Shown piece after piece: positions 1 through 15,555 of a stretch of 64,000 nucleotides of DNA. The stretch comes from Gammaproteobacteria bacterium. Its GTDB lineage: Bacteria; Pseudomonadota; Gammaproteobacteria; Chromatiales; Chromatiaceae. The notes beneath the pieces are model-generated. The model worked only from the letters and a program-made list of their open reading frames with translations, searched no databases and was not told the DNA's origin. The position numbers and the translations under genes were made by a program. Where the stretch lies: NCBI GenBank assembly GCA_009928645.1, contig SACH01000006.1, positions 1 to 64,000 on the forward strand. Reading direction: 5' to 3'. Numbering within the stretch: position 1 is the first letter of the stretch; every line of letters starts with the position of its first letter.

Positions 1-246
1 CACCTGCCCCACCCCCGCCCCCCGCTCCATCAGGGCCAGGACCTGGCGCACGCGGTCGATGTCAGCCTCCGTATAGAGGCGATGCCCCTTTTCCGTCCGG
101 GTCGGGGTCAGCAGACGGTAGCGGCGCTCCCAGGCCCGCAGGGTGACCGGTGGCACGCCGGTCAGACGGGAAACGGTGCGGATGGGGTAGAGACCGAGCC
201 CCCGCGACCCGCCGTCATCCTCCTCCACGCTGACTAATTCGCTCAT
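1..246 (-). CDS. MerR-family regulator, CarH/LitR-like (N-terminal part, runs off left edge)
   Basis: Reading the minus strand from the ATG at 246 gives 82 residues that remain open at base 1, so only the N-terminal DNA-binding part is present. After a short acidic leader (MSELVSVEEDDGGSRG) comes a typical MerR winged-helix: YPIRTVSRLTGVPPVTLRAW, then ERRYRLL, then KGHRLYTEADIDRV. The RxWERRYxLxxPxRTxKGHRLY pattern is characteristic of the CarH/LitR group, whose C-terminal half binds adenosylcobalamin and senses light. That half is outside the window, so light sensing is inferred. The gene diverges from the lipid-type gene series that starts at 330, and four 11-bp repeats lie in the gap. Alternative: an ordinary MerR repressor of the same operon. 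Confidence 0.85.
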   Translation of the reverse strand, partial: MSELVSVEEDDGGSRGLGLYPIRTVSRLTGVPPVTLRAWERRYRLLTPTRTEKGHRLYTEADIDRVRQVLALMERGAGVGQV

Positions 247-274
247 GCTCGCTTGCCTGACAGTCTTTTTTTTG

Positions 275-318
275 TTATACCACACTTATACAAAATTTGT
301 ACAAAGTCGATACAACGC
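275..318. promoter_or_regulatory. Four tandem 11-bp repeats: probable CarH/LitR operator
   Basis: Four contiguous 11-bp units read TTATACCACAC (275-285), TTATACAAAAT (286-296), TTGTACAAAGT (297-307) and CGATACAACGC (308-318). All share an (A/G)TAC(A/C)A core in the same register. CarH/LitR tetramers are known to bind tandem repeats of about 11 bp with a TACA-type core. The array fills most of the 83-bp gap between the divergent MerR gene and the gene starting at 330. On the plus strand, TTGCCT (253-258) and TTATAC (275-280), 16 bp apart, form a weak promoter-like pair overlapping the first repeat. On the minus strand, TATAAC overlaps the same repeat. Confidence 0.75.
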
Positions 319-329
319 AGGTAACCGCC

Positions 330-1610
330 ATGACCCCGATCCCTTACCTGAACCTACCCTCCTTTGAGCACAGCCTGGTGGCCGAGCGCGCCCGCGAGCG
401 CGTGGAACCGGGCGCCATGTTGGAACTGGAGCTGGACATCCTCTTCGCCGCCAACGGCGTGACCTGCCGCGACAGCCGGGTGATCCGCAAGTCCAATCTG
501 TGGCGGGACTTCTTTCCCGGCCAACTGGAGCGGCAGCTCCTGGGCACGGCGGTGGGGGAGCGGGTCGAGGCGGACTTCGTCCCCGGTGCCCTGACCGAAT
601 ACCAGGAAGGGGAGCGCTTCACCGCCCCCCGCGGTGCCTTCCGCAGCCGCAAGCTGGTCCGCCGCGACCTGGAGCCGCGGCTGGGCCGCTTTTATCCCCG
701 GGGTTTCCTCGCCGGCCAGCGGGGGATCTTCTCGGAGGATCGGCGCCCCCTGCGCGTGACCGGGATGCCGGCGGAGCGCCTGGAGGTCGACAGCCGCCAC
801 CCCCTGGCTGGGGTGCCGGTCCGGCTGGGCATCAGCGTCCTCAGCACCTGGGGCACCGGCGAGGAGCACGGCGGCATCTGTAATGACATCGCCATGCTGG
901 CCACGGGTGAGGGCCCGGGCATGCAGCTTCCCCTGGCCCAAGGGACGAGTGACTTCTGGTACCCCGAGGCCATGGGCCGCCTGGACAACCGTGGCGATGA
1001 GGTCTTCTACGAGCGCACCCGCCTGGTGCACCACCTGGACAGCCATTGCCGGGCCCAGATCGAGGCCCTCCATGGCCAGTTGATCCCCGCCGGCGCCAAG
1101 GTGCTGGACCTGATGTCGAGCTGGGTCTCCCACCTGGATCGTATCACCCCCGCCTGCCAGGTAACGGGGCTGGGGATGAATCGGGAGGAACTGGACGCCA
1201 ATCCGCGCCTGGCGGAGCGGGTGATCCACGACCTCAACCAGAACCCCACCCTGCCCTTCGCCAGGGCCAGCTTCGATGCCGTGGTCTGCACCGCCTCCTT
1301 CGAGTACCTGACCCAACCGCGCCAGATCGTCGCGGAGATCGCCCGGGTGCTGAAGCCCGGTGGTATCTGTATCATCACCTTCTCGGATCGCTGGTTCCCG
1401 ACCAAGGCCGTCCAGGTCTGGACCGAGGTCCACCCCTTCGAACGCCTGGGCTATGTCCTGGCCAGCCTGATGAGCGACGAGCGTCTGGGTGATTTCAACA
1501 CCTACAGCCGTCGCGGCCTGCCGCGGCCCCAGGATGACGCCCGCGCCGGGGAACTGGATCTCTCCGATCCCCTGTTCGCGGTCTGGGCCCGGCGCCGGCC
1601 GGAGCATTGA
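330..1610 (+). CDS. FKBP-like domain fused to SAM-dependent methyltransferase
   Basis: The protein has about 426 residues from the ATG at 330; an upstream in-frame TTG (297) lies inside the repeat array and is unlikely. Residues about 25-130 resemble an FKBP/SlyD-type peptidyl-prolyl isomerase fold (ELDILFAANG, FFPGQLERQLLGTAVGER). The C-terminal 190 residues are a class I methyltransferase of the Methyltransf_11 type: AKVLDLMSSWVSHL (motif I region), SFDAVVCTASFEYLTQP, and VLKPGGICIITFSDRWFP. It is the first gene of the series under the 11-bp repeat array. The substrate is unknown. The fusion is visible in one uninterrupted frame. Whether the FKBP part is catalytic cannot be judged. Confidence 0.75.
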   Translation: MTPIPYLNLPSFEHSLVAERARERVEPGAMLELELDILFAANGVTCRDSRVIRKSNLWRDFFPGQLERQLLGTAVGERVEADFVPGALTEYQEGERFTAPRGAFRSRKLVRRDLEPRLGRFYPRGFLAGQRGIFSEDRRPLRVTGMPAERLEVDSRHPLAGVPVRLGISVLSTWGTGEEHGGICNDIAMLATGEGPGMQLPLAQGTSDFWYPEAMGRLDNRGDEVFYERTRLVHHLDSHCRAQIEALHGQLIPAGAKVLDLMSSWVSHLDRITPACQVTGLGMNREELDANPRLAERVIHDLNQNPTLPFARASFDAVVCTASFEYLTQPRQIVAEIARVLKPGGICIITFSDRWFPTKAVQVWTEVHPFERLGYVLASLMSDERLGDFNTYSRRGLPRPQDDARAGELDLSDPLFAVWARRRPEH

Positions 1611-1657
1611 GTAACCGCGGGCAACTGGCAACCGCCAGCGAGCCACCGCGACCGCCA

Positions 1658-1694
1658 GGCGGGCACCGGGTCTCTGTAGCGCCCGGTGCCCGCC
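1658..1694 (+). terminator. Perfect 13-bp hairpin between the methyltransferase gene and hemH
   Basis: GGCGGGCACCGGG (1658-1670) and CCCGGTGCCCGCC (1682-1694) form a perfect 13-bp stem with an 11-base loop. There is no clear T run, so it may be an attenuating or mRNA-processing hairpin rather than a full terminator. It lies 28 bp before the hemH start. Confidence 0.5.
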
Positions 1695-1722
1695 CCCTTG
1701 TTCACTTGAAGGATCGCGCCTC

Positions 1723-2793
1723 ATGAAGTACTTGTCCGAGTCCGATTACGTCCATGGCCAGGCCCCCGCCACGGGGGTCCTGCTGGCCAACCTCGGCACG
1801 CCGGACGCCCCGGACCGGGCGGCGGTGCGGCGCTATCTCAAGCAGTTCCTCTGGGACCCGCGGGTGGTGGAGACCCCCCGCCCCCTCTGGTGGCTGATCC
1901 TCAACGGCATCATCCTCACCACCCGCCCCCAACGCTCGGCGAAGGCCTATGCCAGCATCTGGGGCGCGGAGGGCTCGCCCTTGCTGAGCATCTCCCGCGC
2001 CCAGCACGCCCGCCTGGCGCAGGCCCTGGGGCCGACGCTGAAAGTGGAACTGGCCATGCGCTACGGCCAACCCTCCATCCCCCAGGCCCTGGCGGCCCTG
2101 CGCCAGGCCGGCGTCCGCCGTATCCTGGTGCTGCCGCTCTACCCCCAATACTCCGGCACCACCACCGCCAGCGTCTTCGACGCCGTGACCCAGGAGATCC
2201 GCGGCTGGCGCTGGATCCCCGAACTGCGCTTCGTCAATCAGTATCACGATGACCCCGCTTTCATCACCGCCCTGGCGGAATCGGTGCGCGCTTATCAGGC
2301 GGAGCATGGCCGACCCCAGCGGCTGGTGATGTCCTTCCACGGCCTGCCCCGGGCCTACTTCGACGCCGGCGACCCCTACTACTGCCAGTGTCAGAAGACC
2401 GCCCGGCTGCTGGCGGAAACGCTGGGGCTCACGGCGGAGGACTATGCCGTGACCTTCCAGAGCCGGCTCGGCGTCAAGGCCTGGCTCCAGCCTTACACCG
2501 ACGAGTACCTGCAAGGGCTGCCCCCGCAAGGCATCCGCCGCGTCCAGGTCATCTGCCCCGGTTTCAGCGCCGACTGCCTGGAGACCCTCGAGGAGGTGGC
2601 CATCGAGAACCGCGACCACTTCCTGGCCAAGGGTGGCGAAGCCTACGACTACATCCCCTGCCTCAACGACAGCGCGGGACATATCGCCTTCCTCCAGGGG
2701 CTGATTCACCGCCACCTTCAGGGCTGGGAACCGGTCCCCTGCGATGGCCCCGCCAGCCTGGCGCGGGCCAAGGCCCTGGGGGCGTCCCGCTAG
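1723..2793 (+). CDS. hemH: Ferrochelatase
   Basis: This 356-residue protein inserts ferrous iron into protoporphyrin IX to give protoheme. Family marks are GVLLANLGTPDAPD near the N-terminus, LPLYPQYSGTTTASVFD at about residue 130, SFHGLPRAYF with the metal-binding histidine, and PGFSADCLETLEEVAIE with the conserved acidic residues. Length is normal for bacterial enzymes. The ATG at 1723 is preceded by GAAGGA (1708-1713). Its place inside a CarH/LitR-type gene series is unusual: in a phototroph, making heme on demand would drain protoporphyrin, a photosensitiser and bacteriochlorophyll precursor. That role is inference. Whether it is the only hemH of the genome is unknown. Confidence 0.95.
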   Translation: MKYLSESDYVHGQAPATGVLLANLGTPDAPDRAAVRRYLKQFLWDPRVVETPRPLWWLILNGIILTTRPQRSAKAYASIWGAEGSPLLSISRAQHARLAQALGPTLKVELAMRYGQPSIPQALAALRQAGVRRILVLPLYPQYSGTTTASVFDAVTQEIRGWRWIPELRFVNQYHDDPAFITALAESVRAYQAEHGRPQRLVMSFHGLPRAYFDAGDPYYCQCQKTARLLAETLGLTAEDYAVTFQSRLGVKAWLQPYTDEYLQGLPPQGIRRVQVICPGFSADCLETLEEVAIENRDHFLAKGGEAYDYIPCLNDSAGHIAFLQGLIHRHLQGWEPVPCDGPASLARAKALGASR

Positions 2794-2898
2794 TGGCAGG
2801 TTTCGGCATGTGGCCACCCTTGTCCCCTTTATCGCGGCAACGCTCGCGCCCTGGCGCGCCGGCGCTGTCCCTTTGGTCACCCCATACAGGCCATTGAC

Positions 2899-4566
2899 AT
2901 GACCTCTACCGACACCCCTTACACGGTCTCCGACTACCTGGTTCATCGGTTGCAGGACATTGGTATCGGGCATGCCTTCGGGGTGCCCGGGGACTACACC
3001 CTGGACTTCCTTGACCGGCTGGTGCATAGCCCCATCGCCTGGGTCGGCAATTGCAACGAACTCAACGCTGGCTACGCGGCGGACGGCTACGCCCGCCTCC
3101 AGGGGGCCGGTCTGGCGGTGATCACCTACGCCGTGGGCGGCTTCAGCATCCTCAACGCAGTGGCGGGTGCCTACGCCGAGCACGTGCCCCTGGTGGTCAT
3201 CAGCGGGGCCCCGGCCATGACGCGCCGTCAGACCCAGGCCCTGGTGCACCATCTGGCGGGGGACCACGACATGCAGCTCGAGATCTTCCGCAAGCTCACG
3301 GTGGACTGCGCCCTCCTCGCCAGCCCACACACCGCCCCCGACGACATCGACCGGGTGCTCACCAACTGCTTGTCCTGGAAGCGCCCGGTCTACCTGGAAC
3401 TGCCCATGGACGTGGCGCAGATGCCCTGTCGCCACCCCCAGCCCATCAGCTTTCAGATTGAGAAGGTCTCTGACCCCCGGGCCCTGGACGAGTGTCTGGC
3501 AGAGGTGGCAAGACGTTTGGACGAGGCCCACAATCCGGCGGTGCTGGTGGGCACCGAGGTATCCCGCTTCGGCCTAGGGCCGGCGGCCCTGCACCTGATC
3601 GAACGGCTGGAACTGCCCTACGCCATGACCGTCAGTGCCAAGGGTTGTCTGCCGGAACTCCACCCCCAGTGCCTGGGGGTCTACCAGGGGGCCCTGAGCC
3701 GGCCCGAGACCCGCGCCCAGATTGAGGAGTCGGATTGCCTGATCGAACTGGGGGTCTGGTTGACCGACTGGGACACCGGTCTCTATACCTCCCCCCAGGC
3801 GCAACGGGTCTTCGTCCGCGCCAACCTCGACCAGGTCAGGATCGGCTTCCATATCTACCCCGGGGTCCAACTGGAGGACTTCGTCCGCGGCCTGGCGGAC
3901 CAGGCCACGCCACGCCACTTCCGTGACTCCCATCCTATCCGGCCCAATGCCCCGGTCCGCTCTTACCTGCCCGAGGTGAGCCAGCCCCTGAGCGCCGCCC
4001 GCTTTTATCGGCGGGTGGAGGCCTTCCTCGACGACTCCATGATCCTGGTCTCTGACATTGGCGACGTGGTCTGCGCCGTGGCCGACATGCACATCGAGGA
4101 GGCGGATAACTTCCTCACCCAGGCCTATTACATGTCCATTGGCTATGCCACCCCCGCCGCCCTGGGCGTGTCCCTGGCGCGCCCCGACAAACGCCCGGTG
4201 GTCCTGGCCGGCGACGGTGCCTTCCAGATGACCGCCCAGGAGGTGTCCACCCTCCTGCGCCAGGGCTGCCGGCCCATCCTCTTCCTGGTCAACAATGACG
4301 GCTACCTGATCGAGCGCTACCTGCATGAGGACCAGGTCTACAACGACCTCCAGCCCTGGAAATACGCCGAGTTGCCCCATGTCTTCGGTGACGGGGCGCT
4401 AACCTTCCGCGTCACCACCGAAGGCGAACTGGAGCATGCCCTGGCCGCAGCCCTCGCCGCGCCGGACAGCCTGGTCTTTATCGAGGCCTGTGTCGGACGT
4501 GACGCCTCCGATGCCCTCAAGCGCATCGGCGCCACCTACCAGAAGAGCTATCGCAAGGGGAGCTGA
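2899..4566 (+). CDS. Thiamine-diphosphate 2-oxoacid decarboxylase (pyruvate/indolepyruvate decarboxylase family)
   Basis: The 555-residue protein has the three-domain layout of pyruvate and indolepyruvate decarboxylases. The N-terminal TPP pyrimidine-binding domain carries the catalytic glutamate in NCNELNAGYAADGYAR (about residue 54) and the adjacent histidine pair in ALVHHLAGDH, typical of decarboxylases rather than acetolactate synthases. The C-terminal domain has the Mg-TPP motif from LAGDGAFQMTAQE to NNDGYLIE (about residues 435-470). The expected reaction is non-oxidative decarboxylation of a 2-oxoacid to an aldehyde. The substrate (pyruvate, indolepyruvate or a branched-chain oxoacid) cannot be told from sequence. 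It lies 105 bp after hemH in the same direction. A link to lipid modification, such as supplying an aldehyde, is speculative. Confidence 0.9.
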   Translation: MTSTDTPYTVSDYLVHRLQDIGIGHAFGVPGDYTLDFLDRLVHSPIAWVGNCNELNAGYAADGYARLQGAGLAVITYAVGGFSILNAVAGAYAEHVPLVVISGAPAMTRRQTQALVHHLAGDHDMQLEIFRKLTVDCALLASPHTAPDDIDRVLTNCLSWKRPVYLELPMDVAQMPCRHPQPISFQIEKVSDPRALDECLAEVARRLDEAHNPAVLVGTEVSRFGLGPAALHLIERLELPYAMTVSAKGCLPELHPQCLGVYQGALSRPETRAQIEESDCLIELGVWLTDWDTGLYTSPQAQRVFVRANLDQVRIGFHIYPGVQLEDFVRGLADQATPRHFRDSHPIRPNAPVRSYLPEVSQPLSAARFYRRVEAFLDDSMILVSDIGDVVCAVADMHIEEADNFLTQAYYMSIGYATPAALGVSLARPDKRPVVLAGDGAFQMTAQEVSTLLRQGCRPILFLVNNDGYLIERYLHEDQVYNDLQPWKYAELPHVFGDGALTFRVTTEGELEHALAAALAAPDSLVFIEACVGRDASDALKRIGATYQKSYRKGS

Positions 4567-4753
4567 GTTTGGCCAGCGCACTGACCAGGTTGACATGCGG
4601 CGGGCGGTCCGGTCCCCTGCCCGGGTGTCAACCACGGGGCTGCGGGCGGCACGCCGGACGGGACCTGATCTCAAACTGTCCCCTGCCGCCCCGGACCCCC
4701 TCCCGTTGGGACCGCCATCCGCAATCGAAATCCGACACGCCAGGGGTATAGCG

Positions 4754-5809
4754 ATGATCTCCCTTGAACGCCTCGCCATTGACTGGGTCGAACAGGGCCG
4801 GGTGCCGGATGCGCTGGTGCGCCAGGGTATCCGCCAGCTCTGCCGGCGGCGTCTGGACCTCATCGCCGCCGCCGACTGCGAGGCGGTGGCCGCCGCCCGT
4901 CAGGCCTTCGTTGCCGAGATGCTCGCGGGCCCCGTCGCCCCGGTGCCGGACCAGGCCAACGCCCAGCACTACGAGGTCCCCGCCGCCTTCTTCGCCGCGG
5001 TCCTGGGGCCACGGCGTAAGTACAGTTGCTGCCACTTCCCCCCCGGCGTGGACGATCTGGCCGCCGCGGAGGACGCCGCCCTGGCCCTGACCTGCCTGCG
5101 GGCCGGCATCGCCGATGGCCAGGACATCCTGGAGCTGGGCTGCGGCTGGGGCAGCCTGACCCTGTGGCTGGCGGAGCATTACCCGGCCGCCCGCATCACC
5201 GCCGTCTCCAACTCCCACTCCCAGCGCCAGCACATCGCGGCCCGGGCCGCCGAGCATAACCTGACCAACCTGCGCCTCATCACCGCCGACATGAACGACT
5301 TCACCACCCCGGAGCGCTTCGACCGGGTGGTCTCGGTGGAGATGTTCGAGCACATGCGCAACTGGGGCCAGCTCTTCCAGCGCGTCGCCGGCTGGCTCAA
5401 GCCGGAGGGGCGCTTCTTCATGCACGTCTTTTGTCACCGCGACCGACCCTACGCCTTCGAGGACCAGGGCGAGGACGACTGGATGAGCCGTCATTTCTTC
5501 ACCGGCGGCATCATGCCCAGCGACGACCTGCCCCTACGCTTCCAGGACCATCTGCGCCTCGTCGACCAGTGGCGCTGGTCCGGTCGCCACTACGAGCGTA
5601 CCGCCAATGCCTGGCTGGCCAATCTGGACGCCCGGAAGGAGGATCTACTGCCCGTCCTCGCCGACTGCTATGGGGCGGACCAGGCCGGCCTCTGGTTCCA
5701 GCGTTGGCGGCTGTTCTTCCTCGCCGTCGCCGAGACCTTCGGCTTTGACGAGGGCCAGACCTGGTGGGTGAGTCACTATCTGTTCGAGCGGCGGGAGGGG
5801 TTAGAGTGA
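4754..5809 (+). CDS. Cyclopropane-fatty-acid-synthase-like SAM methyltransferase
   Basis: Starting at ATG 4754 (AGGGG about 10 bp upstream) the protein has 351 residues. A much earlier in-frame start at 4436 would overlap the preceding gene and is not credible. It has the CFA-synthase-like core: AQHYEVPAAFFAAVLGP, RRKYSCCHFP, then SAM motif I ILELGCGWGSLTLWLAEHYP and VVSVEMFEHMRNW. It is shorter than true CFA synthases and distinct from the second family member at 10048. It probably transfers a methyl group from SAM to an acyl chain or another lipid. Its stop overlaps the next start (GTGA), indicating translational coupling with the DUF2878 protein. Substrate unknown. Confidence 0.8.
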   Translation: MISLERLAIDWVEQGRVPDALVRQGIRQLCRRRLDLIAAADCEAVAAARQAFVAEMLAGPVAPVPDQANAQHYEVPAAFFAAVLGPRRKYSCCHFPPGVDDLAAAEDAALALTCLRAGIADGQDILELGCGWGSLTLWLAEHYPAARITAVSNSHSQRQHIAARAAEHNLTNLRLITADMNDFTTPERFDRVVSVEMFEHMRNWGQLFQRVAGWLKPEGRFFMHVFCHRDRPYAFEDQGEDDWMSRHFFTGGIMPSDDLPLRFQDHLRLVDQWRWSGRHYERTANAWLANLDARKEDLLPVLADCYGADQAGLWFQRWRLFFLAVAETFGFDEGQTWWVSHYLFERREGLE

Positions 5810-6528
5810 CGGCGCGGGCCGCCAGTAATCCCGTCGTACCGGGCTCGGGCTCGACCCGGGGACTGATCCTCAATCTGTCCCTGTTCCAGCTTGGCTGGTG
5901 GGCCCTGGTGCTCAGCGCCGCCCAGGGTCGGCCCCTGATCGGCCTGGTGATCGTCGCCCTGATCCTGGCCTGGCACCTGGGCTTTGTCCGCCCCCTGGCC
6001 AGCGAGGCCCTGCTCATCGGCCTGGCGACCCTCATCGGCCTGGCCTTCGATAGCTTCCTCATCACCACCGGCTGGGTCAGTTTTGGTCCGCCTTCCCTGG
6101 TTGTGGTTCAGACAGCAACCCTGGCCTCGGCGCCCGCGGTTGAGGTAGCCACTAGCCTGGCGGCACCAGCCACGGCGCCGGTGGTCGCCCTGGCCACCAG
6201 TCCGGAACTGGCCCGCGCCAACATCGCGACCACCAGCACCGGCACCTCACTGGTCGCTGCCCTGCCACCTGCGTGGATGCTTGCCCTCTGGGCCAATTTC
6301 GCCACCACCCTCAACCTGTCCCTGGCGGGCCTCCAGACCCGGCCCTGGCTCGCCGCCCTACTTGGTCTGATCGGCGGGCCCCTGGCCTACTGGGGTGGTG
6401 CCAGTCTGGGCGCCATGACCTTCGTCGCCCCCCTCCCCGCCCTCACCACCCTCGCCCTAGGCTGGGCCCTGCTCACCCCGCTGCTCCTGGCCCTGGCCGC
6501 CACCCTTGCCCGGAGGTCGAACCCCTGA
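5806..6528 (+). CDS. DUF2878 membrane protein with a central Ala/Ser/Thr-rich insertion
   Basis: Starting with GTG 5806, overlapping the previous stop and after GGGAGGGG (5793-5800), the protein has 240 residues. It matches DUF2878 at both ends: NLSLFQLGWWALVLSAAQ and FDSFLITTGW on one side, then PPAWMLALWANFATTLN and LGLIGGPLAYWGGASLGA on the other. Several hydrophobic helices are evident. Between FGPP and LPPAWM (residues about 98-152) lies a roughly 55-residue low-complexity stretch rich in A, T, S and V, absent from the usual compact family of about 170 residues. The function of DUF2878 is not known. Its regular company is CFA synthase, DUF1365 and lipocalin genes. Confidence 0.8.
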   Translation: MTARAASNPVVPGSGSTRGLILNLSLFQLGWWALVLSAAQGRPLIGLVIVALILAWHLGFVRPLASEALLIGLATLIGLAFDSFLITTGWVSFGPPSLVVVQTATLASAPAVEVATSLAAPATAPVVALATSPELARANIATTSTGTSLVAALPPAWMLALWANFATTLNLSLAGLQTRPWLAALLGLIGGPLAYWGGASLGAMTFVAPLPALTTLALGWALLTPLLLALAATLARRSNP

Positions 6529-7307
6529 TGGACGCCTTTTCCTGGGAGACCAGCTTCCTCGCCCTGGCCCTGCTGGGGGTCGCCGCCGTGTTGACCTGGC
6601 TGGCGAGCATCCCGCTGCGCAACGTCAGCATCGTCGACAGCCTCTGGGGGGTAATGATCGCCCTCGCCGCCTGGGTCTACGCCCTGGCCACCCCCCAGAC
6701 CGGCCCCCGCGAGGGCCTGGTCCTGGTCCTGGTCAGCCTGTGGATGCTGCGCCTCTCCGGTTATATCACCCGGCGCAACCACGGGCACGGGGAGGATCGC
6801 CGCTATCAGGCCATCCGCGCCCGCAACCAGCCCCACTTCACCTTCAAGAGCCTCTACCTGGTCTTTGGCCTCCAGGCGGTCCTGGCCTGGATCATTGCCT
6901 GGCCCCTGATGGCGGCCATGGCCGGACCAGAGCCCCTGGGCTGGCTCGATGCCCTCGGCGTCGCCCTCTGGCTGTTCGGCATCGGCTTCGAGGCCGGCGC
7001 CGACCAGCAACTCGCCCGCTTCAAGGCCGATCCGGCCAACGCCGGCCGGGTCATGGACCAGGGGTTGTGGCGCTACAGCCGCCACCCCAACTACTTCGGG
7101 GAGTTCTGCGTCTGGTGGGGCGTCTGGCTCCTGGCCCTGGCCGCCGGTGGCGCCTGGACCCTGATCTCCCCCCTGCTCATGAGCTTCCTGTTGCTCAAGG
7201 TCTCCGGTGTCGCCCTGCTGGAGCAGGACATCGGCGAGCGTCGCCCCGCCTATCGCGACTACATCGCCCGCACCAGCGCCTTCTTCCCCTGGCCACCCAA
7301 AGACTAA
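6528..7307 (+). CDS. DUF1295 membrane protein (steroid 5-alpha-reductase-like)
   Basis: ATG 6528 overlaps the upstream TGA, with CGGAGG at 6511-6516, giving 259 residues. The sequence has several transmembrane helices, RNVSIVDSLWG near the N-terminus, and the family hallmark LWRYSRHPNYFGEF at about residue 180, ending in YIARTSAFFPW. DUF1295 belongs with steroid 5-alpha reductases and isoprenylcysteine methyltransferase-like membrane enzymes, some of which reduce a double bond next to a carbonyl. The actual substrate here is unknown. A lipid or acyl chain is the likeliest given the neighbours. Confidence 0.85.
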   Translation: MDAFSWETSFLALALLGVAAVLTWLASIPLRNVSIVDSLWGVMIALAAWVYALATPQTGPREGLVLVLVSLWMLRLSGYITRRNHGHGEDRRYQAIRARNQPHFTFKSLYLVFGLQAVLAWIIAWPLMAAMAGPEPLGWLDALGVALWLFGIGFEAGADQQLARFKADPANAGRVMDQGLWRYSRHPNYFGEFCVWWGVWLLALAAGGAWTLISPLLMSFLLLKVSGVALLEQDIGERRPAYRDYIARTSAFFPWPPKD

Positions 7308-7329
7308 TCGGATTAGGAAGAACATCCCG

Positions 7330-7863
7330 ATGAAACGCCTTCTATGCCTCCTCAGCTTCGGCCTGCTCGCCGGCTGCCAGTCCGCCGCCCTGCCGCCCCT
7401 GACCACCGTGCCCCAGGTCGATCTCAAGCGCTTCATGGGCGACTGGTATGTCATCGCCCACATCCCCACTTGGCCGGAACGTAACGCCTGGAATGCCATC
7501 GAGTCCTACGCCCTGAACCCCGATGGCACCATCGCCACCACCTTCACCTTCCGCGAGGGGGGTTTCGAGGGTGAGCTGAAGACCATGACCCCCACCGGTT
7601 TCGTCACCGACACCGAGAGCAACGCCATCTGGGGCATGCAGTTTCTCTGGCCCTTCAAGGCCGATTTTCGCATCAGTTACCTGACCCCGGACTATGGCCT
7701 CACCGTCATCTCCCGCGAGCGGCGCGACTATGTCTGGGTCATGGCGCGTACTCCCGAGATCCCGGAAACCGAGCGCCAGGCGGTGGAGGAACACCTGAAG
7801 GCCAGCGGCTATGACCTGGCTGAACTGCGTTACGTGCCCCAGCGCTGGGAGGCGAATCCGTGA
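7330..7863 (+). CDS. Lipocalin-family lipoprotein (Blc-like), first copy
   Basis: This 177-residue protein starts with a lipoprotein signal peptide (MKRLLCLLSFGLLAGC, lipobox LLAGC, Cys at residue 16). The lipocalin motif GDWYVIAHI follows at about residue 37, and the C-terminal YVWVMARTPEIPE motif is typical of Blc/apolipoprotein-D-like outer-membrane lipocalins, which bind fatty acids or lysophospholipids. A second lipocalin lies at 11562 in the same series and shares only the family motifs. The stop codon overlaps the GTG of the following FAD enzyme, so the two are translationally coupled. It probably acts in the envelope to carry the lipid product or a damaged lipid; that is inference. 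Confidence 0.88.
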   Translation: MKRLLCLLSFGLLAGCQSAALPPLTTVPQVDLKRFMGDWYVIAHIPTWPERNAWNAIESYALNPDGTIATTFTFREGGFEGELKTMTPTGFVTDTESNAIWGMQFLWPFKADFRISYLTPDYGLTVISRERRDYVWVMARTPEIPETERQAVEEHLKASGYDLAELRYVPQRWEANP

Positions 7864-9185
7864 ACATCGCCATCGTCGGCAGCGGTATCGCCGGTCTGGG
7901 CGCCGCCCATCACTTACATCGTGAAGGGCACGCAATCACCCTCTTTGAGGCCGGCGACCACGTCGGCGGCCACGTCAACACCCACCCGATCAGCCTGGGC
8001 GGGAACGACTACGCCGTGGACTCCGGCTTCATCGTCTTCAATGACTGGACCTATCCCAACTTCATCGCCCTGCTGGACGAAGTGGGGGCGGAGAGTCAGG
8101 CCAGCGACATGAGCTTCAGCGTCTCCTGCGGCCGCACCGGCCTGGAGTACAACGGCGCCACTTTCAACAGCCTCTTCGCCCAGCGCGCCAACCTGGTCAA
8201 CCCCCGCTTCTGGGGCATGCTGTGGGACATCCTGCGCTTCAATCGCGAGGCCCCCAAGCTGCTGGCGGAAGAAGGTAACGAAGTCAGCCTCGGCGACTTC
8301 CTCACCGCCGGGGGCTATGGTCAGCTCTTCCGTGACTATTACATCCTGCCCATGGGCGCCGCCATCTGGTCCACCGATGCGGAGCGGATGCTCGGCTTTC
8401 CGGCGCGCTTCTTCGTCCGCTTCTTCCTCAATCACGGCCTGCTGGCCGTCAAGGACCGCCCCGTCTGGCGGGTGATCAAGGGCGGGTCCCGGGCCTATGT
8501 GGACAAGCTCATCGCCCCCTTCCGCGACCGGGTGCGATTGAACTGCCCGGTGACGCGGATCGAGCGCCGGGACGAAGGGGTGAGCCTGCACAGTGCGACG
8601 GGCGGACGGGAGGACTTCGACGCCGTCTTCCTTGCCTGCCACAGCGACCAGGCCCTGGCCCTGCTGGCGGACCCCAGCCCGGCGGAGACCCAGGTCCTGG
8701 GCGCCATCCCCTACCATCTCAACGAGGCGGTGCTGCACACCGACACCCGCCTGCTGCCGCGGCAACCCCTGGCCTGGGCCTCCTGGAATTACCTTATGCC
8801 CGAAGGCCCCGGCGGTCGCCTGGCCCTGACCTACGACATGACCCATCTTCAGAGCCTGGACGCCCCGGAGACCCTCTGCGTCACCCTCAATGCCAGCGAG
8901 CGCATCGACCCGGCCAGGGTGCTGGCCCGCGTGACCTACCATCACCCCCTCTTCACCCTGGAGGGCGCCGCGGCCCAGACTCGCCAGCGGGAGATCAACG
9001 GCCCCCGCCGCACCTATTATTGCGGCGCCTACTGGCGCAATGGCTTCCACGAGGACGGCCTGGTCAGCGCCCTGGAGGCCCTGGGCCATTTCCGCGCCGA
9101 TTTCGGCCTGCCGCGGGGACCCAGCCCATTGACAAATGCCAGCAGACAAGACCCCTCCGGGGACCCGCAACCGGTGGCGCGCTGA
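7860..9185 (+). CDS. FAD-dependent oxidoreductase, amine-oxidase/desaturase-like
   Basis: The GTG at 7860 overlaps the preceding stop. The 441-residue protein opens with an FAD-binding fold: MNIAIVGSGIAGLGAAHHLH, then FEAGDHVGGHVNT. Downstream GGSRAYVDKL and the C-terminal YYCGAYWRNGFHEDGLVSAL complete the family pattern of flavoproteins grouped with amine oxidases, phytoene desaturases and the COG2907 family. This type is regularly adjacent to DUF1365 and CFA synthase, as here. In Rhodobacter sphaeroides a comparable photooxidative-stress locus makes methylated and furan fatty acids. By analogy this enzyme may oxidise or desaturate a modified acyl chain. Exact reaction not shown. Confidence 0.85.
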   Translation: MNIAIVGSGIAGLGAAHHLHREGHAITLFEAGDHVGGHVNTHPISLGGNDYAVDSGFIVFNDWTYPNFIALLDEVGAESQASDMSFSVSCGRTGLEYNGATFNSLFAQRANLVNPRFWGMLWDILRFNREAPKLLAEEGNEVSLGDFLTAGGYGQLFRDYYILPMGAAIWSTDAERMLGFPARFFVRFFLNHGLLAVKDRPVWRVIKGGSRAYVDKLIAPFRDRVRLNCPVTRIERRDEGVSLHSATGGREDFDAVFLACHSDQALALLADPSPAETQVLGAIPYHLNEAVLHTDTRLLPRQPLAWASWNYLMPEGPGGRLALTYDMTHLQSLDAPETLCVTLNASERIDPARVLARVTYHHPLFTLEGAAAQTRQREINGPRRTYYCGAYWRNGFHEDGLVSALEALGHFRADFGLPRGPSPLTNASRQDPSGDPQPVAR

Positions 9186-9230
9186 AGACCGCAGACCGCA
9201 GCGCGTAAGGCGAAGATCGAAGAGAGCGAC

Positions 9231-10043
9231 ATGGAGCCGATAACCCCCCCGTCTGACCAGCCCCTGCACAGCTGCCTTTACGAAGGCTGGCTGCGGCACC
9301 GCCGTTACACCCCCAAACGGCACGAATTCCGTTATCCCCTCTTCATGCTCTGGCTGGACCTGGGCGAACTGGACCGGGTCTTCGCCGGGCGCTGGTTCTG
9401 GTCCACCCGCCGCCCCAACCTGGTCTGGTTCCGCCGCGCCGACTATGGCGGCGACCCGACCCTGCCCCTGGACGAGGCCATGCGCCGCCTCGTGGCGGAG
9501 AAGACCGGCTGGCGTCCGCTGGGGCCGGTGCGGATGCTCACCAATCCCCGCTACTTCGGCTATTGCTTCAACTCCATCAGCCTCTATTACTGTTACAGCA
9601 CGGACGGCCAGACCCTGGAGGCGGTGGTCGGCGAGGTGACTAATACCCCCTGGGGCGAGCGCATCCACTATGTCCTGCCCCTGGAGGCCAACCTGGGGCG
9701 CCCCGAGAAGCCCCGGTTCCGCTTCCCCAAGGCCCTGCACGTCTCGCCCTTCCTGCCCATGGACATGGAGTACCACTGGCGCCTGAACCTGCCCGGCGAG
9801 CGCTTGACCGTGCACATGGACGACCTGCGCGGCGGCGAGAACATCCTCGACGCCACCCTGGTCCTGGAGCGGCGGGAGATCGACGGCCCCAGCCTGGCCC
9901 GGGTCCTGTGGCGCTACCCGGCCATGACCCTCCAGGTCATCTTCAACATTCACTGGCAGGCCCTCAAGCTCTGGCTCAAGGGCGTGCCCTTTATCGACCA
10001 CCCGCCCCCCGACCCCCCGAAGGAGGCGCCTGGCCAGGCGTAA
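9231..10043 (+). CDS. DUF1365 family protein
   Basis: The 270-residue soluble protein carries the DUF1365 signature: [35 protein letters not shown], then [18 protein letters not shown] and [19 protein letters not shown]. The family has no established biochemical activity but is nearly always found between an FAD oxidoreductase and a CFA synthase. That trio is complete here (7860-11496). It probably acts on, or helps form, the modified fatty acid. It ends 4 bp before the CFA synthase start, consistent with one transcript. Confidence 0.88.
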
Positions 10044-10047
10044 GCCC

Positions 10048-11496
10048 ATGAGTGACGAGACCCTCACCGCCACCCTGCCCCTGAACCTGGCCGCCCCAAG
10101 GTGGGCCAGGCCCCTGCACACGCTGGCCCGTCGGCTGGTGCTCGCCAAGCTCGCCCGCCTGGGTACCGGCGTGGCGCTGGGGGCCGCGCCAGCTCATCAT
10201 CCAGATGCCCCCATGGGTGCCGAGCCTGGTGCCGGCACGGGTAGCGATCAGACTGTTAGCCAGCTCCCCGTTGCCGTGATCACCGGATCGCACCCAGATC
10301 GGCCCGTCGTCAGCGCCAGCGCCGGCGCCGTTGCCGTTGGTAGCGGACGCTTGCTGGTCCGGGAGGGCGACCGCCACTGGTGCTTCGGCCAGGGCGAGCC
10401 CCTCGTCGAGGTGGAGGTCCGGGACCCGGCCTTCTGGCCGGCCATGGCCTTCGGCGGTACCGTCGGCGCCGGGGAGGCCTTCATGGACGGCCACTGGGAG
10501 TGCGAGGATCTCACCGGCCTGGTCCAGTTGCTGCTGCGCAACCGCCCGGCACTCATGGACATGGAGGAGGGCCTGGCCCGCCTCTCCGCCCCCCTGCGGG
10601 CCCTGCTGCACCGCGCCCGGGACAACCATCGCCGCGGCAGCCGCCGCAACATCGCCGCCCACTACGATTTGGGCAACGACTTCTATCGCCTCTGGCTGGA
10701 CGAGACCCTGATGTACTCCAGCGCCCTCTTCACCCGCCCGGACATGAGCCTGGCCGAGGCCTCCACCGCCAAGCTGGAGCTTATCTGCCGCAAGCTGGAC
10801 CTGCGGCCGGGCGACCAGGTCCTGGAGATTGGTACCGGTTGGGGCGGCTTCGCCCTCTATGCCGCCAGTCGTTATGGTTGCCGGGTCACCAGCCTGACCC
10901 TGTCGCGGGAGCAGGCCGAGCTGGCGCGCCAGCGCGCCGCCGCCGCCGGTCTGGCGGACCGGGTGGAGGTCCAGTTACGCGATTACCGCGACCAGCGGGG
11001 CCAGTACGACAAGTTGGTGTCCATCGAGATGATCGAGGCGGTCGGCGCCCGCCACCTGGAGACCTACTTCCGCCAGTGCGGGCGCCTGCTCAAGCCGACC
11101 GGGGCCATGCTGCTCCAGGCCATCACCATCGCCGACCAGCGCTACCAGGCCGCCCTCAAGGAGGTGGATTTCATCCAGAAGCACATCTTCCCCGGCGGCT
11201 TCCTGCCCAGCGTCACCGCCATGGCCAGCGCCATGACCCGGGCCTGCGACCTCAAGATCGTCCACCTGGAGGACATCGGCCCCCACTACGCCGAGACCCT
11301 GGCCCGCTGGCGGGACAACTTCGTCCGGCGTCTGGACGCCGTGCGCGCCCTGGGCTTCGACGAGCGCTTCATTCGCATGTGGCGCTTCTATCTCAGCTAC
11401 TGCGAGGGCGGCTTCCGCGAGCGTGACCTGGGCACGGTACAGATGCTCCTGGCCAAGCCCGGCTGGCGCGGTGCTCTGCCCCTGGGTGCCTGGTAG
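10048..11496 (+). CDS. Cyclopropane-fatty-acyl-phospholipid synthase family methyltransferase with N-terminal insertion
   Basis: The protein is 482 residues long. From residue about 105 it is a full CFA-synthase-type enzyme: AHYDLGNDFYRLWLDETLMY, VLEIGTGWGGFALYAASRYG (SAM motif I), VSIEMIEAVG, IQKHIFPGGFLPS and MWRFYLSYCEGGFRER. Such enzymes use SAM to methylate or cyclopropanate the double bond of membrane acyl chains. Residues about 40-98 form a low-complexity G/A/P/V-rich stretch interrupting the usual N-terminal domain, similar in character to the insertion in the DUF2878 protein. The enzyme may make cyclopropane, branched methyl or furan-precursor chains. Which one cannot be told from sequence. 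Confidence 0.88.
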   Translation: MSDETLTATLPLNLAAPRWARPLHTLARRLVLAKLARLGTGVALGAAPAHHPDAPMGAEPGAGTGSDQTVSQLPVAVITGSHPDRPVVSASAGAVAVGSGRLLVREGDRHWCFGQGEPLVEVEVRDPAFWPAMAFGGTVGAGEAFMDGHWECEDLTGLVQLLLRNRPALMDMEEGLARLSAPLRALLHRARDNHRRGSRRNIAAHYDLGNDFYRLWLDETLMYSSALFTRPDMSLAEASTAKLELICRKLDLRPGDQVLEIGTGWGGFALYAASRYGCRVTSLTLSREQAELARQRAAAAGLADRVEVQLRDYRDQRGQYDKLVSIEMIEAVGARHLETYFRQCGRLLKPTGAMLLQAITIADQRYQAALKEVDFIQKHIFPGGFLPSVTAMASAMTRACDLKIVHLEDIGPHYAETLARWRDNFVRRLDAVRALGFDERFIRMWRFYLSYCEGGFRERDLGTVQMLLAKPGWRGALPLGAW

Positions 11497-11561
11497 GCCT
11501 CGTCCCTGCTTGGATGACCCCGCAGCGACCTCCCGCAATGACGCTCAGGACCCCACCCCCC

Positions 11562-12125
11562 ATGAACCATCGCCGCCATTCAGCCGCCGCCCTCCTCACC
11601 CTGCTCCTGCTCGCGCTTACCCTCCCGCTGCTGGGCGGTTGTACTGGCGTGCCTGAGGGCATCCAGCCGGTATCGGGCTTCAAGGTGGATCGCTATCTCG
11701 GCACCTGGCACGAGATCGCCCGTTTGGACCATTCCTTCGAGCGCGGTCTGGAGCAGGTCTCCGCCCACTATGAGCCGCGGGCGGACGGCGGCATCAGCGT
11801 CCTGAATCGCGGGTTCGACCCCGTCAAGGGGCAATGGAAGGAGGCCGAGGGTCGCGCCTATTTCATCAGCGAGCCCGACATCGCCAGCCTCAAGGTCAGC
11901 TTCTTCGGTCCCTTTTATGGCGGCTACCACGTCTTTGCCCTGGACCCGGACTACCGCTGGGTGATGATCTCTGGCCCCAGCCGGGACTATTTGTGGATCC
12001 TGGCGCGAGAACCGCAATTGCCCTCCCCGCTGCTGGAGGAGTTGATCGCGCGGGCGCGAGAGGCCGGTTTCTCCACCGAAACCCTCATCTTTCCCCCACC
12101 CAGTGCGCCCCCAGCGACGTCCTAG
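11562..12125 (+). CDS. Lipocalin-family lipoprotein (Blc-like), second copy
   Basis: ATG 11562 gives 187 residues with a lipoprotein signal (HSAALLTLLLLALTLPLLGG then Cys, lipobox LLGGC). In-frame ATGs at 11514 and 11538 would add a polar, proline-rich leader and are less likely. The lipocalin motif YLGTWHEIARLDHSFERGLE and the C-terminal DYLWILAREPQLPSP motif identify the Blc family. It is clearly a paralog of the lipocalin at 7330 but diverged. It follows the CFA synthase by 65 bp. Two separate lipocalins in one series suggest two ligands or two transport steps; this is inference. Confidence 0.87.
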   Translation: MNHRRHSAAALLTLLLLALTLPLLGGCTGVPEGIQPVSGFKVDRYLGTWHEIARLDHSFERGLEQVSAHYEPRADGGISVLNRGFDPVKGQWKEAEGRAYFISEPDIASLKVSFFGPFYGGYHVFALDPDYRWVMISGPSRDYLWILAREPQLPSPLLEELIARAREAGFSTETLIFPPPSAPPATS

Positions 12126-12190
12126 CGAGGTCATTGTGATCCTTGACGTCCGCCACATCACCACTTTGCCACCACCTGGAGACAGCCACC

Positions 12191-12421
12191 ATGATCACTT
12201 CGACCCTTGATCCCATCACCCTCAACGACGTGACCGATCTGGACAATGCCCCCTTCATCATCGAGGGCAGCGGCGACAGCACCCTGAAAATCTATTTCGA
12301 ATCCGAGGCCAACAAGCAGGAGTACCTGGCGACCGAGGTGCATGGTGCCCTGAATACCGCCGGCCTCAAGTCCATCTACGACGACGTCGCCGACAATCCC
12401 ATCACCGGCACCATCAACTGA
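12191..12421 (+). CDS. Small acidic hypothetical protein
   Basis: A 76-residue acidic protein (MITSTLDPITLNDVTDLDN at the start, NPITGTIN at the end) with no cysteine, no signal peptide and no membrane segment. The start is supported by GGAGA at 12178-12182, eight bases before the ATG. It lies 65 bp after the second lipocalin, in the same direction, and is the last plus-strand gene before a convergent gene. I do not recognise the family. It could be a product of the same regulon or a stand-alone small gene. Confidence 0.6.
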   Translation: MITSTLDPITLNDVTDLDNAPFIIEGSGDSTLKIYFESEANKQEYLATEVHGALNTAGLKSIYDDVADNPITGTIN

Positions 12422-14109: not shown

Positions 14110-14235
14110 TTGCCCAAGTATATTTGCAATTGCTTATGATCGCGGAGAAACTTGCTCCCTGACCCCGGTCGCGACGGCAGGCCCCTGCCGATCTCAGTGG
14201 CGGGCGGTCACGGGCGCACTTCGGAGGACCACACC

Positions 14236-15021
14236 TTGGCGAAACTCTCTCTCGACCACCTGACCCCGATGCGGGAGCGGCTGGCCAGTCATCCCATCTA
14301 CGCCTCCCTGCGGTCGCTGGACGACCTGCGGGTCTTCATGCACCACCACCTCTTCGCGGTCTGGGACTTCATGTCCCTGGTCAAATATATGCAGCAGCAT
14401 CTCGCCCCCGCCCGGGTACCCTGGTTGCCCGGGGGCGACACCACCCTGAAGCGCTTCATCAACCAACTGGTGCTGGACGAGGAATCGGACCTGGCCCCCG
14501 GCGGCGAGGGGGCAGGCTACCTGAGCCATTTCGAGTTGTACGTCCGGGCCTGGAGCGAGATCGGCGGTGATGCCAGCCTCGTCGAGCACTTCCTCGTCCG
14601 GGTGCGGGACCAGGGCCTGGATGCGGCCCTCTATTCGGATCTGGTACCCCTGCCCGCCCGTTACTTCGTCGAGACCAGCTTCGCCGTCATCAACGAGGAT
14701 AAGCCCCACGAGGTCGCCGCCGCCCTGGCCCTGGGTCGGGAGCAGGTGATCCCGGACATGTTCCGCCGCTTCATCGCCCGGAGTGGCCTCACCATCGACC
14801 AGGCCCCCAGCTTCCACTACTACCTGGAGCGGCACATCCACCTCGATGGCGAATTACATGGCCCCCTGTCCCTGAGGCTGATCGACGAACTCTGCGCCGG
14901 GGACCCCCAGCGAATCGAGGAGGCCGAGACCGCCGCCGAGGAGGCCCTCTGCGCCCGCATCCGCTTCTGGGACGGGGTCCTGGAGGGCATCGAGTCCGCC
15001 AGGGCCTCCCGTAACGCCTGA
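14236..15021 (+). CDS. DUF3050 protein (heme-oxygenase-like fold)
   Basis: The start is best placed at TTG 14236, which has GGAGG (14223-14227) eight bases upstream, giving 261 residues. The earlier in-frame start at 14152 adds an unlikely leader. The protein matches DUF3050: FMHHHLFAVWDFMSLVKYMQ, LDEESDLAPGG, SHFELYVRAW and YYLERHIHLDGELHGPLS. The several conserved histidines and glutamates resemble heme-oxygenase or PqqC-like helical folds that hold a di-metal or heme centre. No reaction is known for the family. It is a single gene on its strand, divergent from the SafE-like gene. Confidence 0.85.
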   Translation: MAKLSLDHLTPMRERLASHPIYASLRSLDDLRVFMHHHLFAVWDFMSLVKYMQQHLAPARVPWLPGGDTTLKRFINQLVLDEESDLAPGGEGAGYLSHFELYVRAWSEIGGDASLVEHFLVRVRDQGLDAALYSDLVPLPARYFVETSFAVINEDKPHEVAAALALGREQVIPDMFRRFIARSGLTIDQAPSFHYYLERHIHLDGELHGPLSLRLIDELCAGDPQRIEEAETAAEEALCARIRFWDGVLEGIESARASRNA

Positions 15022-15258: not shown

Positions 15259-15555
15259 ATGCCAGTCAGCGTTCCCGTGGACGGTGAGGGTTTCCTCATC
15301 AATCGTGACGATTGGAGCGAGGAGGTCGCCATCCAACTTGCCCAGACCGACGATTTCACGATCGACGAGCGGATCATGCATTACATCCGCGAAGCCCGGG
15401 CCATGTACGAAAACGACGGTGTCGTGCCCCCCATCCGTAAGTTCGCCAAGGAGTTGAACATCTCCACCAAGGAACTCTACGATGTCTTCAAGAAAGGCCC
15501 CATGAAACTGATCTGCAAATGGGGCGGGCTGCCCAAACCTACCGGCTGCGTCTGA
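15259..15555 (+). CDS. DsrC-family sulfur-carrier protein
   Basis: This 98-residue protein is a DsrC/TusE-family member. The C-terminal arm reads ICKWGGLPKPTGCV and keeps both conserved cysteines, the penultimate one and the one 11 residues before it. These form the trisulfide or persulfide in sulfur oxidisers and sulfate reducers. WSEEVAIQLAQTDDF and DGVVPPIRKFAKEL are also family-typical. GGAG about seven bases before the ATG supports the start. It stands alone with its own terminator, not in a dsr operon, so it is probably a paralog of the main DsrC. It could carry sulfur or act in regulation. Confidence 0.88.
   Translation: MPVSVPVDGEGFLINRDDWSEEVAIQLAQTDDFTIDERIMHYIREARAMYENDGVVPPIRKFAKELNISTKELYDVFKKGPMKLICKWGGLPKPTGCV

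Follow-up and report, generated by a model that had tools for sequence, protein, structure and literature searches.

Could a single B12-dependent light switch in a phototrophic bacterium govern both a protective membrane-lipid pathway and the only ferrochelatase found in its genome? The question is raised by a stretch of 64,000 nucleotides (the window) from a Gammaproteobacteria bacterium of the family Chromatiaceae (assembly GCA_009928645.1), i.e. bases 1-64000 of the 68,120-base contig SACH01000006.1, with window base 1 being the contig start. Positions 330-12421 hold a row of eleven plus-strand genes and one small acidic open reading frame (ORF), divergent from a MerR gene that is truncated by the contig end, a layout described by a first-pass annotation and confirmed here by the ORFs and by Pfam. 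The order is fkbp_mt, hemH, pdc, mt2, DUF2878, DUF1295, lipocalin, flavin adenine dinucleotide (FAD) enzyme of amine-oxidase type, DUF1365, CMAS methylase, lipocalin and acidic ORF, the Pfam families being ferrochelatase, three TPP-enzyme domains, CMAS (twice), DUF2878, DUF1295, Lipocalin_2 (twice), the amine-oxidase-type FAD enzyme and DUF1365. With a probability of roughly 60%, the row is read here as a light-induced photo-oxidative-stress operon under an adenosylcobalamin (AdoCbl)-binding CarH repressor.

The same gene set was looked for in relatives, the genus comparison comprising the host (G000) and three congeners (G001, G002 and G003). The whole row, in identical order, is present in G003 and G002, and parts of it are present on two contigs of G001, in the same order as far as the contigs allow. 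The row order is more than chance, since it is kept in G003, G002 and the G001 pieces at 53-95% protein identity to the window (53-88% in G002).

A CarH-family regulator and its candidate operator

Only the N-terminal, helix-turn-helix part of the regulator lies in the window (positions 1-246, minus strand, open frame to 285; MerR_1, E 9e-17), about 82-95 amino acids in all, because the window begins at the contig start, and the B12 domains fall outside it. A CarH assignment from the window alone was rejected on account of this truncation; the earlier label of a CarH/LitR-like regulator holds at the level of the CarH family through the congeners and a further host contig (C414), but not from the window itself, which contains no B12 domain. 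The MerR part is 70-84% identical to that of the congeners' MerR-B12 genes, and in all three congeners a photolyase gene is followed by a full MerR-B12 gene and then by the divergent row. The G001 and G002 regulators carry MerR, B12-binding_2 and B12-binding domains, which fits the class I LitR domain make-up described in PMC9758184. In alignment with Thermus CarH (3whp), the G001 protein keeps the AdoCbl residues W, EH and GxxH, with GEHHELG over GERHEIG; the class I LitR/CarH residues W131, E141/H142 and H177 are found in G001 and the same letters in the host's locus L034, the CarH AdoCbl residues being those named in PMC11796333 and Wx9EH being given in PMC8156234. The end of host contig C414 holds the B12 half of a regulator, with both B12 domains and a photolyase beside it. 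From these domains and residues, the regulator of the row is predicted, with support, to be of the CarH-family, AdoCbl-binding type. The C414 linker (end of L107, L034) is in frame; it may be genuinely long or may be an artefact of the contig end.

Positions 272-315 contain four tandem 11-base-pair (bp) direct repeats, of which the central two are perfect to nAnnTnnACAn, the published CarH operator consensus (PMC8156234). With 16 of 20 consensus letters this place outscores all others in the 64 kb, and 20 simulated windows reached 14 at most; the repeats are kept, by sequence only, across the genus (the three congeners score 15-17 of 20), and they are a likely CarH docking site. The most probable start of fkbp_mt is the ATG at 330; in each of the four genus genomes an ATG stands at this place after the operator. 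A TTG start at 297 was rejected as falling inside the operator. Further afield, operator-like repeats (three-repeat score 11-14 of 15) were read by eye within about 255 bp upstream of a MerR match in 12 of 22 MerR loci, and in the distant locus L110 fkbp_mt is divergent from a CarH gene with an operator between them. Under the light-operon reading, AdoCbl-CarH would sit on the four 11-bp repeats in the dark and block the divergent promoters; in light the Co-C bond would be broken, CarH would leave and the row would be transcribed. A sigma-70 scan, which covers one promoter type, gave one site in the window, at 12166, against 1.0 expected, and none at the operator.

Candidate furan-fatty-acid genes in the lipid core

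The lipid core runs from mt2 to the CMAS methylase, and its last three genes are an amine-oxidase-type FAD enzyme (7860-9185; PF01593), a DUF1365 protein (9231-10043; PF07103, E 3e-84) and the CMAS-family methylase (10048-11496), all on the plus strand. The proposal in the first-pass annotation that these form a conserved lipid set was borne out, and the set is widespread and of furan-fatty-acid type: a DUF1365 protein, the candidate UfaO, stands beside an S-adenosylmethionine (SAM) methylase, the candidate UfaM, and is preceded by a UfaD-type enzyme. UfaD is itself presumed here to be an FAD enzyme; the word 'flavin' was not found in the text of PMC7380195. That study, by Lemke et al. on Rhodobacter sphaeroides, assigns UfaD to RSP1091, UfaO, a DUF1365 protein, to RSP1090 and UfaM to RSP2144, and the numbering of the Rhodopseudomonas palustris homologs (RPA2571-2570-2569) implies the order UfaD-UfaO-UfaM, as in the window; the three genes are consecutive in Halomonas too (PMC12089945). 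The composition of the core thus supports the presence of a putative ufaD-ufaO-ufaM set.

The third gene had been called a cyclopropane fatty acid (CFA) synthase, a label that did not survive. In the Escherichia coli enzyme bicarbonate is bound by Glu239, His266 and Tyr317 and is the presumed base in cyclopropane ring closure (PMC11387697). The window protein keeps the Glu and the Tyr but has Gln at the position of His266, so that the full CFA synthase ligand set is absent, and it scores below the NCBIfam CFA cut-offs; a canonical CFA synthase identity was rejected on both grounds, and the gene appears UfaM-like because the bicarbonate-ligand His is Gln. The window protein retrieved 82 CMAS rows (rows covering less than 60% of the query were dropped), and 81 of these have Gln: every one of the 80 rows with a DUF1365 match at its locus, counting the window and the congeners, as well as one of the two rows that lack such a match. 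The single row with His, from Marichromatium, is an mt2-type match. Three solved CFA synthases have His, and these are the only known CFA synthases in the set, making for a small control. C139 of CFA was dropped as a signature residue, being variable. That the enzyme is an ordinary cyclopropane synthase, with the row supplying cyclopropane fatty acids in general stress, would agree with its CMAS family and with CFA synthases as its best solved relatives (E 6e-59), but the Gln shared with every DUF1365-linked row, the sub-threshold scores and the DUF1365 and FAD-enzyme neighbours make this very improbable. A weakened bicarbonate site would fit an enzyme that stops at the methylated alkene. UfaM-type methylases and cyclopropane synthases carry the same family name, and the Gln-for-His difference, if it holds against tested enzymes, would be a simple sequence test to tell them apart.

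In the light-operon reading, phospholipid acyl chains would undergo methylation, desaturation and oxygenation by UfaM, UfaD and UfaO, and the resulting methylated furan fatty acid would be consumed by the singlet oxygen that forms when O2 is present. The remaining plus-strand members of this part of the row may serve in the synthesis or handling of the modified lipid: mt2 (4754-5809), a CMAS-type methyltransferase whose nearest solved relatives belong to the plant coclaurine N-methyltransferase family, perhaps in a second methylation, together with the DUF2878 protein (5806-6528; PF11086), the DUF1295 protein (6528-7307, start read from the ORF list; PF06966, E 6.5e-74) and two lipoprotein-like lipocalins. 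The first lipocalin (7330-7863) has a lipobox-like LLAGC, its signal being read by eye, and the second (11562-12125, start uncertain, 11514 possible) a lipobox-like LLGGC; the two lipocalins of the first-pass annotation were both confirmed by Pfam as Lipocalin_2 (PF08212).

Ferrochelatase between candidate operator and core

The gene hemH (1723-2793, plus strand; PF00762, E 1.4e-116; TIGR00109 above cut-off) encodes a ferrochelatase and is the only PF00762 match found in each of G000-G003, genomes that are 76-100% complete, such that a second copy could be missed. The proposed phototrophy of the host is supported by pufL/M-type genes, carried by the host and two of the three congeners, and by a BchE gene in the host. 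Protoporphyrin IX is the precursor of both heme and bacteriochlorophyll. In this phototrophic genus three genes would have been recruited to the operator-proximal slot, namely fkbp_mt, pdc (a 2-oxoacid decarboxylase) and the only ferrochelatase found, and read-through in light would raise heme synthesis and lower protoporphyrin IX at its branch point with bacteriochlorophyll. It is thus tentatively proposed, at rather less than even odds, that a B12 photoreceptor gates the heme/bacteriochlorophyll branch, with light derepressing the only ferrochelatase together with a singlet-oxygen-scavenging lipid pathway. If true, one light switch would lower free protoporphyrin IX and harden the membrane in a phototroph, and a B12 light sensor would be tied to the choice between heme and bacteriochlorophyll in a way testable at one promoter. 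Loss of hemH leads to protoporphyrin IX accumulation and blue light avoidance in E. coli (PMC12627116) and to higher light-induced carotenogenesis in Myxococcus xanthus (PMC8156234), and ferrochelatases have precedents in photo-oxidative responses, namely hemH2 of Shewanella (PMC4336711) and cbiX of Rhodobacter capsulatus (PMC7074977).

Several observations weigh against the light-operon reading. At the regulator, no base overlap exists between the C414 end and the window, and the linker of the host's B12 half is unlike that of the congeners, for which reasons the adjacency of the two pieces is only inferred; the NCBIfam CarH equivalog NF052513 has a cut-off of 400, which was missed by the G001 protein (126.9 bits) and the host half (85.9), and the regulator is therefore filed in the CarH/LitR family rather than under that equivalog. 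Of 40 loci that lack a MerR match, 20 reach a three-repeat score of at least 11 at some place and 8 reach at least 12, so that only position beside a MerR gene speaks for such sites. In the closest relatives of the core (L108, L111 and L154) the MerR gene is just 40-43% identical, and strong CarH-like repeats are lacking. Around fkbp_mt, a convincing CarH site is absent from the 12 non-genus loci L039-L050, two of which (L048 and L050) carry a MerR-B12 gene no more than 3 kb away; the best shuffle fraction there is 0.12 (three repeats). Upstream of fkbp_mt none was found in L120 and L144, and L146 gave a shuffle fraction of 0.055. Immediately in front of hemH, no CarH site was found in any of the three tested congeners, nor is the hemH position in the window among the best places of the window-wide scan. 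A hairpin precedes hemH, strong in the window and weaker in G003. As hemH is presumably essential, its full repression in the dark would require another promoter. We infer light control and the co-transcription of hemH, and likewise the lipid product, the porphyrin effect and the roles of pdc and fkbp_mt; light control of hemH is tentative, since the hairpin precedes the gene and a CarH site at hemH is absent.

In an alternative reading, CarH would control only fkbp_mt and the lipid core, and hemH, perhaps with pdc, would be an insulated housekeeping unit that lies in the row by chance and has its own promoter, the hairpin stopping or processing the upstream transcript. The GC-rich hairpin (1658-1694, plus strand, stem of about 15 bp; -41 kcal/mol for 1645-1725, z -4.0) lies in the 112-bp gap between fkbp_mt and hemH, its pattern having one match in the window against none in 100 shuffles, and a weaker counterpart (z -2.9) occurs in G003; it is possibly an attenuator or a processing site. 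The missing CarH site at hemH and the single, presumably essential, gene also agree with insulation, as does the spacing: the close gene packing described earlier holds for the seven core genes, which overlap or are separated by no more than 45 bp, but not for the first three gaps of the row (112 bp, 105 bp between hemH and pdc, and about 187 bp between pdc and mt2, some of the starts used being read from the ORF list). Against it, the gap between fkbp_mt and hemH is about 21 bp in G002, the hairpin was not found by folding in G001 or G002, pdc and mt2 are separated by about 10 bp (G003) or 16 bp (G002), the window hairpin has no T run, and the sigma-70 scan gives no promoter there, though it also gives none at the operator. 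Insulation of hemH is accordingly considered somewhat unlikely. The window's pdc-mt2 gap (4567-4753) is about 170 bp longer than in G002 and G003.

The other two operator-proximal genes are fkbp_mt and pdc. The product of fkbp_mt (330-1610, plus strand) had been described as an FKBP/methyltransferase fusion, of which the SAM methyltransferase part is recognised by Pfam (Methyltransf_11). Its AlphaFold2 model (pLDDT 86) has phosphatidylethanolamine N-methyltransferase 8ys9 as its first Foldseek match and matches SlyD (3cgm) at rank 42 (E 1.6e-7, TM 0.56 by target, aligned range not given); SlyD is absent from the VIA list for fkbp_mt, which the methyltransferase domain fills. No Pfam FKBP match was found at E<=1 in the protein and 15 aligned relatives (16 members), and the FKBP-like label of this putative SlyD-like domain is one of predicted fold alone. 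The pdc gene (2899-4566, plus strand) encodes a thiamine diphosphate (ThDP)-dependent 2-oxoacid decarboxylase of the pyruvate/indolepyruvate/branched-chain type, with keto acid decarboxylases as its best solved relatives (E 6e-96). Alongside three ThDP domains it has all of the motifs GDY, NEL, HH and NNDGY..E; it falls below the NCBIfam equivalog cut-offs. Homologs occur in nine further genomes among 370 (37-43% identity, E<=1e-100) and, among the relatives, in G012 (52%), G055 (42%), G006 (35%) and three weaker cases; of these pdc genomes only G133, G137 and G244 also have DUF1365, on different contigs.

Distribution, descent and known systems

To place the row more widely, 14 aligned mt2 proteins were used as query, and the best 80 loci of a longer list were annotated, with gene counts that are lower bounds as loci are cut by contig ends. 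The gene counts show the core to be a common cluster that is sometimes accompanied by CarH: DUF1295 in 63 loci, CMAS in 55, the FAD enzyme and DUF1365 in 54 each, DUF2878 in 51 and lipocalin-1 in 38, with MerR and B12 in 21 each (both in 20), photolyase in 13, lipocalin-2 in seven, the acidic ORF in six, fkbp_mt in four (near the core in L110, L120, L144 and L146), hemH in one, at the locus edge, and pdc in none. The stretches fetched from G044, which has the seven-gene core, and G039, which has part of it, lack hemH, pdc and fkbp_mt, and none of the other non-genus loci mapped pairs hemH and pdc with the core. The placement of hemH, pdc and fkbp_mt between operator and core is special to this phototrophic genus, within what was searched. 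The core itself is not tied to phototrophy, as G044 has the core and no PF00124 match; G042 and G014, of the same family, likewise have no PF00124 matches. In one of these, G014, the locus L048 (C278:30000-49900) has the FAD/DUF1365/CMAS trio, two MerR matches, fkbp_mt, a B12-domain match and a lipocalin within about 17 kb, and is a looser relative of the window's island.

Proximity of hemH to DUF1365 was compared by eye. Among the 32 relatives with DUF1365, hemH lies in the DUF1365 row in G000, G002 and G003, and in G001 the two are on two contigs of the row; the other 28 have no hemH within 20 kb, the nearest being at about 41 kb (G025), and G084 has no hemH match. DUF1365 occurs in 115 of 370 class genomes, nine of them already among the relatives; of the other 106, 102 have hemH (G376 weakly), and in three it lies within 20 kb of DUF1365, at about 8 kb on the opposite strand (G180), about 13 kb (G230) and about 9 kb (G356, a second hemH copy). 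In two further genomes hemH and fkbp_mt are same-strand neighbours away from the lipid core, with a distance of about 1.3 kb in G042 and about 4 kb in G044. The second hemH of G356 (L199, C1:199500-219400) is on an island with ufaD-ufaO-ufaM homologs, a lipocalin, a photolyase and a MerR gene, and is an independent link of ferrochelatase with a ufa-type island.

A midpoint-rooted tree of 81 CMAS proteins joins the genus to Thiobacillus/Burkholderiales-type loci (100/100) and separates it from 19 of the 21 other rows of the family (100/100), which is a hint of transfer. The same position, along with the lack of hemH and pdc matches in those Thiobacillus/Burkholderiales-type loci, would suit acquisition of the cluster as a block, with hemH and pdc as insertion-site hitchhikers of no shared function. 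This is judged quite unlikely given that the order is kept in G002 despite the divergence of its proteins, and that hemH and pdc sit between operator and core on the same strand rather than at an edge.

Known systems resemble the row in part. In Pseudomonas mendocina and P. putida a MerR/LitR-family repressor lies beside a photolyase gene (phrB/ufaM system) and a light-induced polycistron has a short-chain dehydrogenase and an FAD-dependent oxidoreductase beside ufaM, but this LitR is of class II, lacks the second B12 domain and has its repression lifted by a LOV protein; the main text contains neither 'ferrochelatase' nor 'hemH', and its CarH/LitR accounts concern non-phototrophic hosts (PMC9758184). 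The R. sphaeroides and R. palustris ufa pathway shares the DUF1365 protein UfaO, UfaD and a SAM methylase, but in R. sphaeroides it is tied to the singlet-oxygen sigmaE-ChrR response, and hemH, pdc, fkbp_mt and lipocalin do not appear in the sections of PMC7380195 covered. The RpoE2-ChrR regulon of Shewanella oneidensis brings a ferrochelatase, a photolyase and a CMAS gene into one photo-oxidative regulon; there hemH2, a paralogue, shares a separate operon with a glutathione peroxidase, phrB and cfa form another operon, and control is by a sigma factor, not CarH (PMC4336711). CarH of Thermus, Bacillus and Myxococcus is likewise a MerR-B12 repressor with an 11-bp direct-repeat operator of three or four repeats, but is described for carotenoid genes (PMC8156234). 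In full-text literature searches, with subscription papers outside their coverage, none of the titles and abstract openings listed brought CarH/LitR, ferrochelatase and ufa genes together in a single operon. The claim of an undescribed combination stands, within the loci mapped and the literature covered, for hemH and pdc with the core, but not for a LitR-family-controlled core, nor for a ferrochelatase in a photo-oxidative regulon, for which the Shewanella regulon is a precedent; G356, too, has a second hemH near a ufa-type island. In kind, the row is a light/singlet-oxygen lipid operon of a known sort, its composition is new, and its point of interest is the placement of the only ferrochelatase found.

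No RNA was found in the window by Rfam at gathering scores. The small acidic ORF at the 3' side of the cluster (12191-12421, plus strand, 76 codons, pI about 4.05) has no Pfam or NCBIfam match, and its fold prediction (pLDDT 47) was unusable; it is conserved at 62-87% identity in seven other loci, two of them congeners, and L108, L109, L111, L154 and L169 are among the loci that carry it; in L146 part of it has a 50% match on the opposite strand. Beyond the row lie a DUF3050 protein (14152-15021) and a DsrC-like protein (15259-15555).

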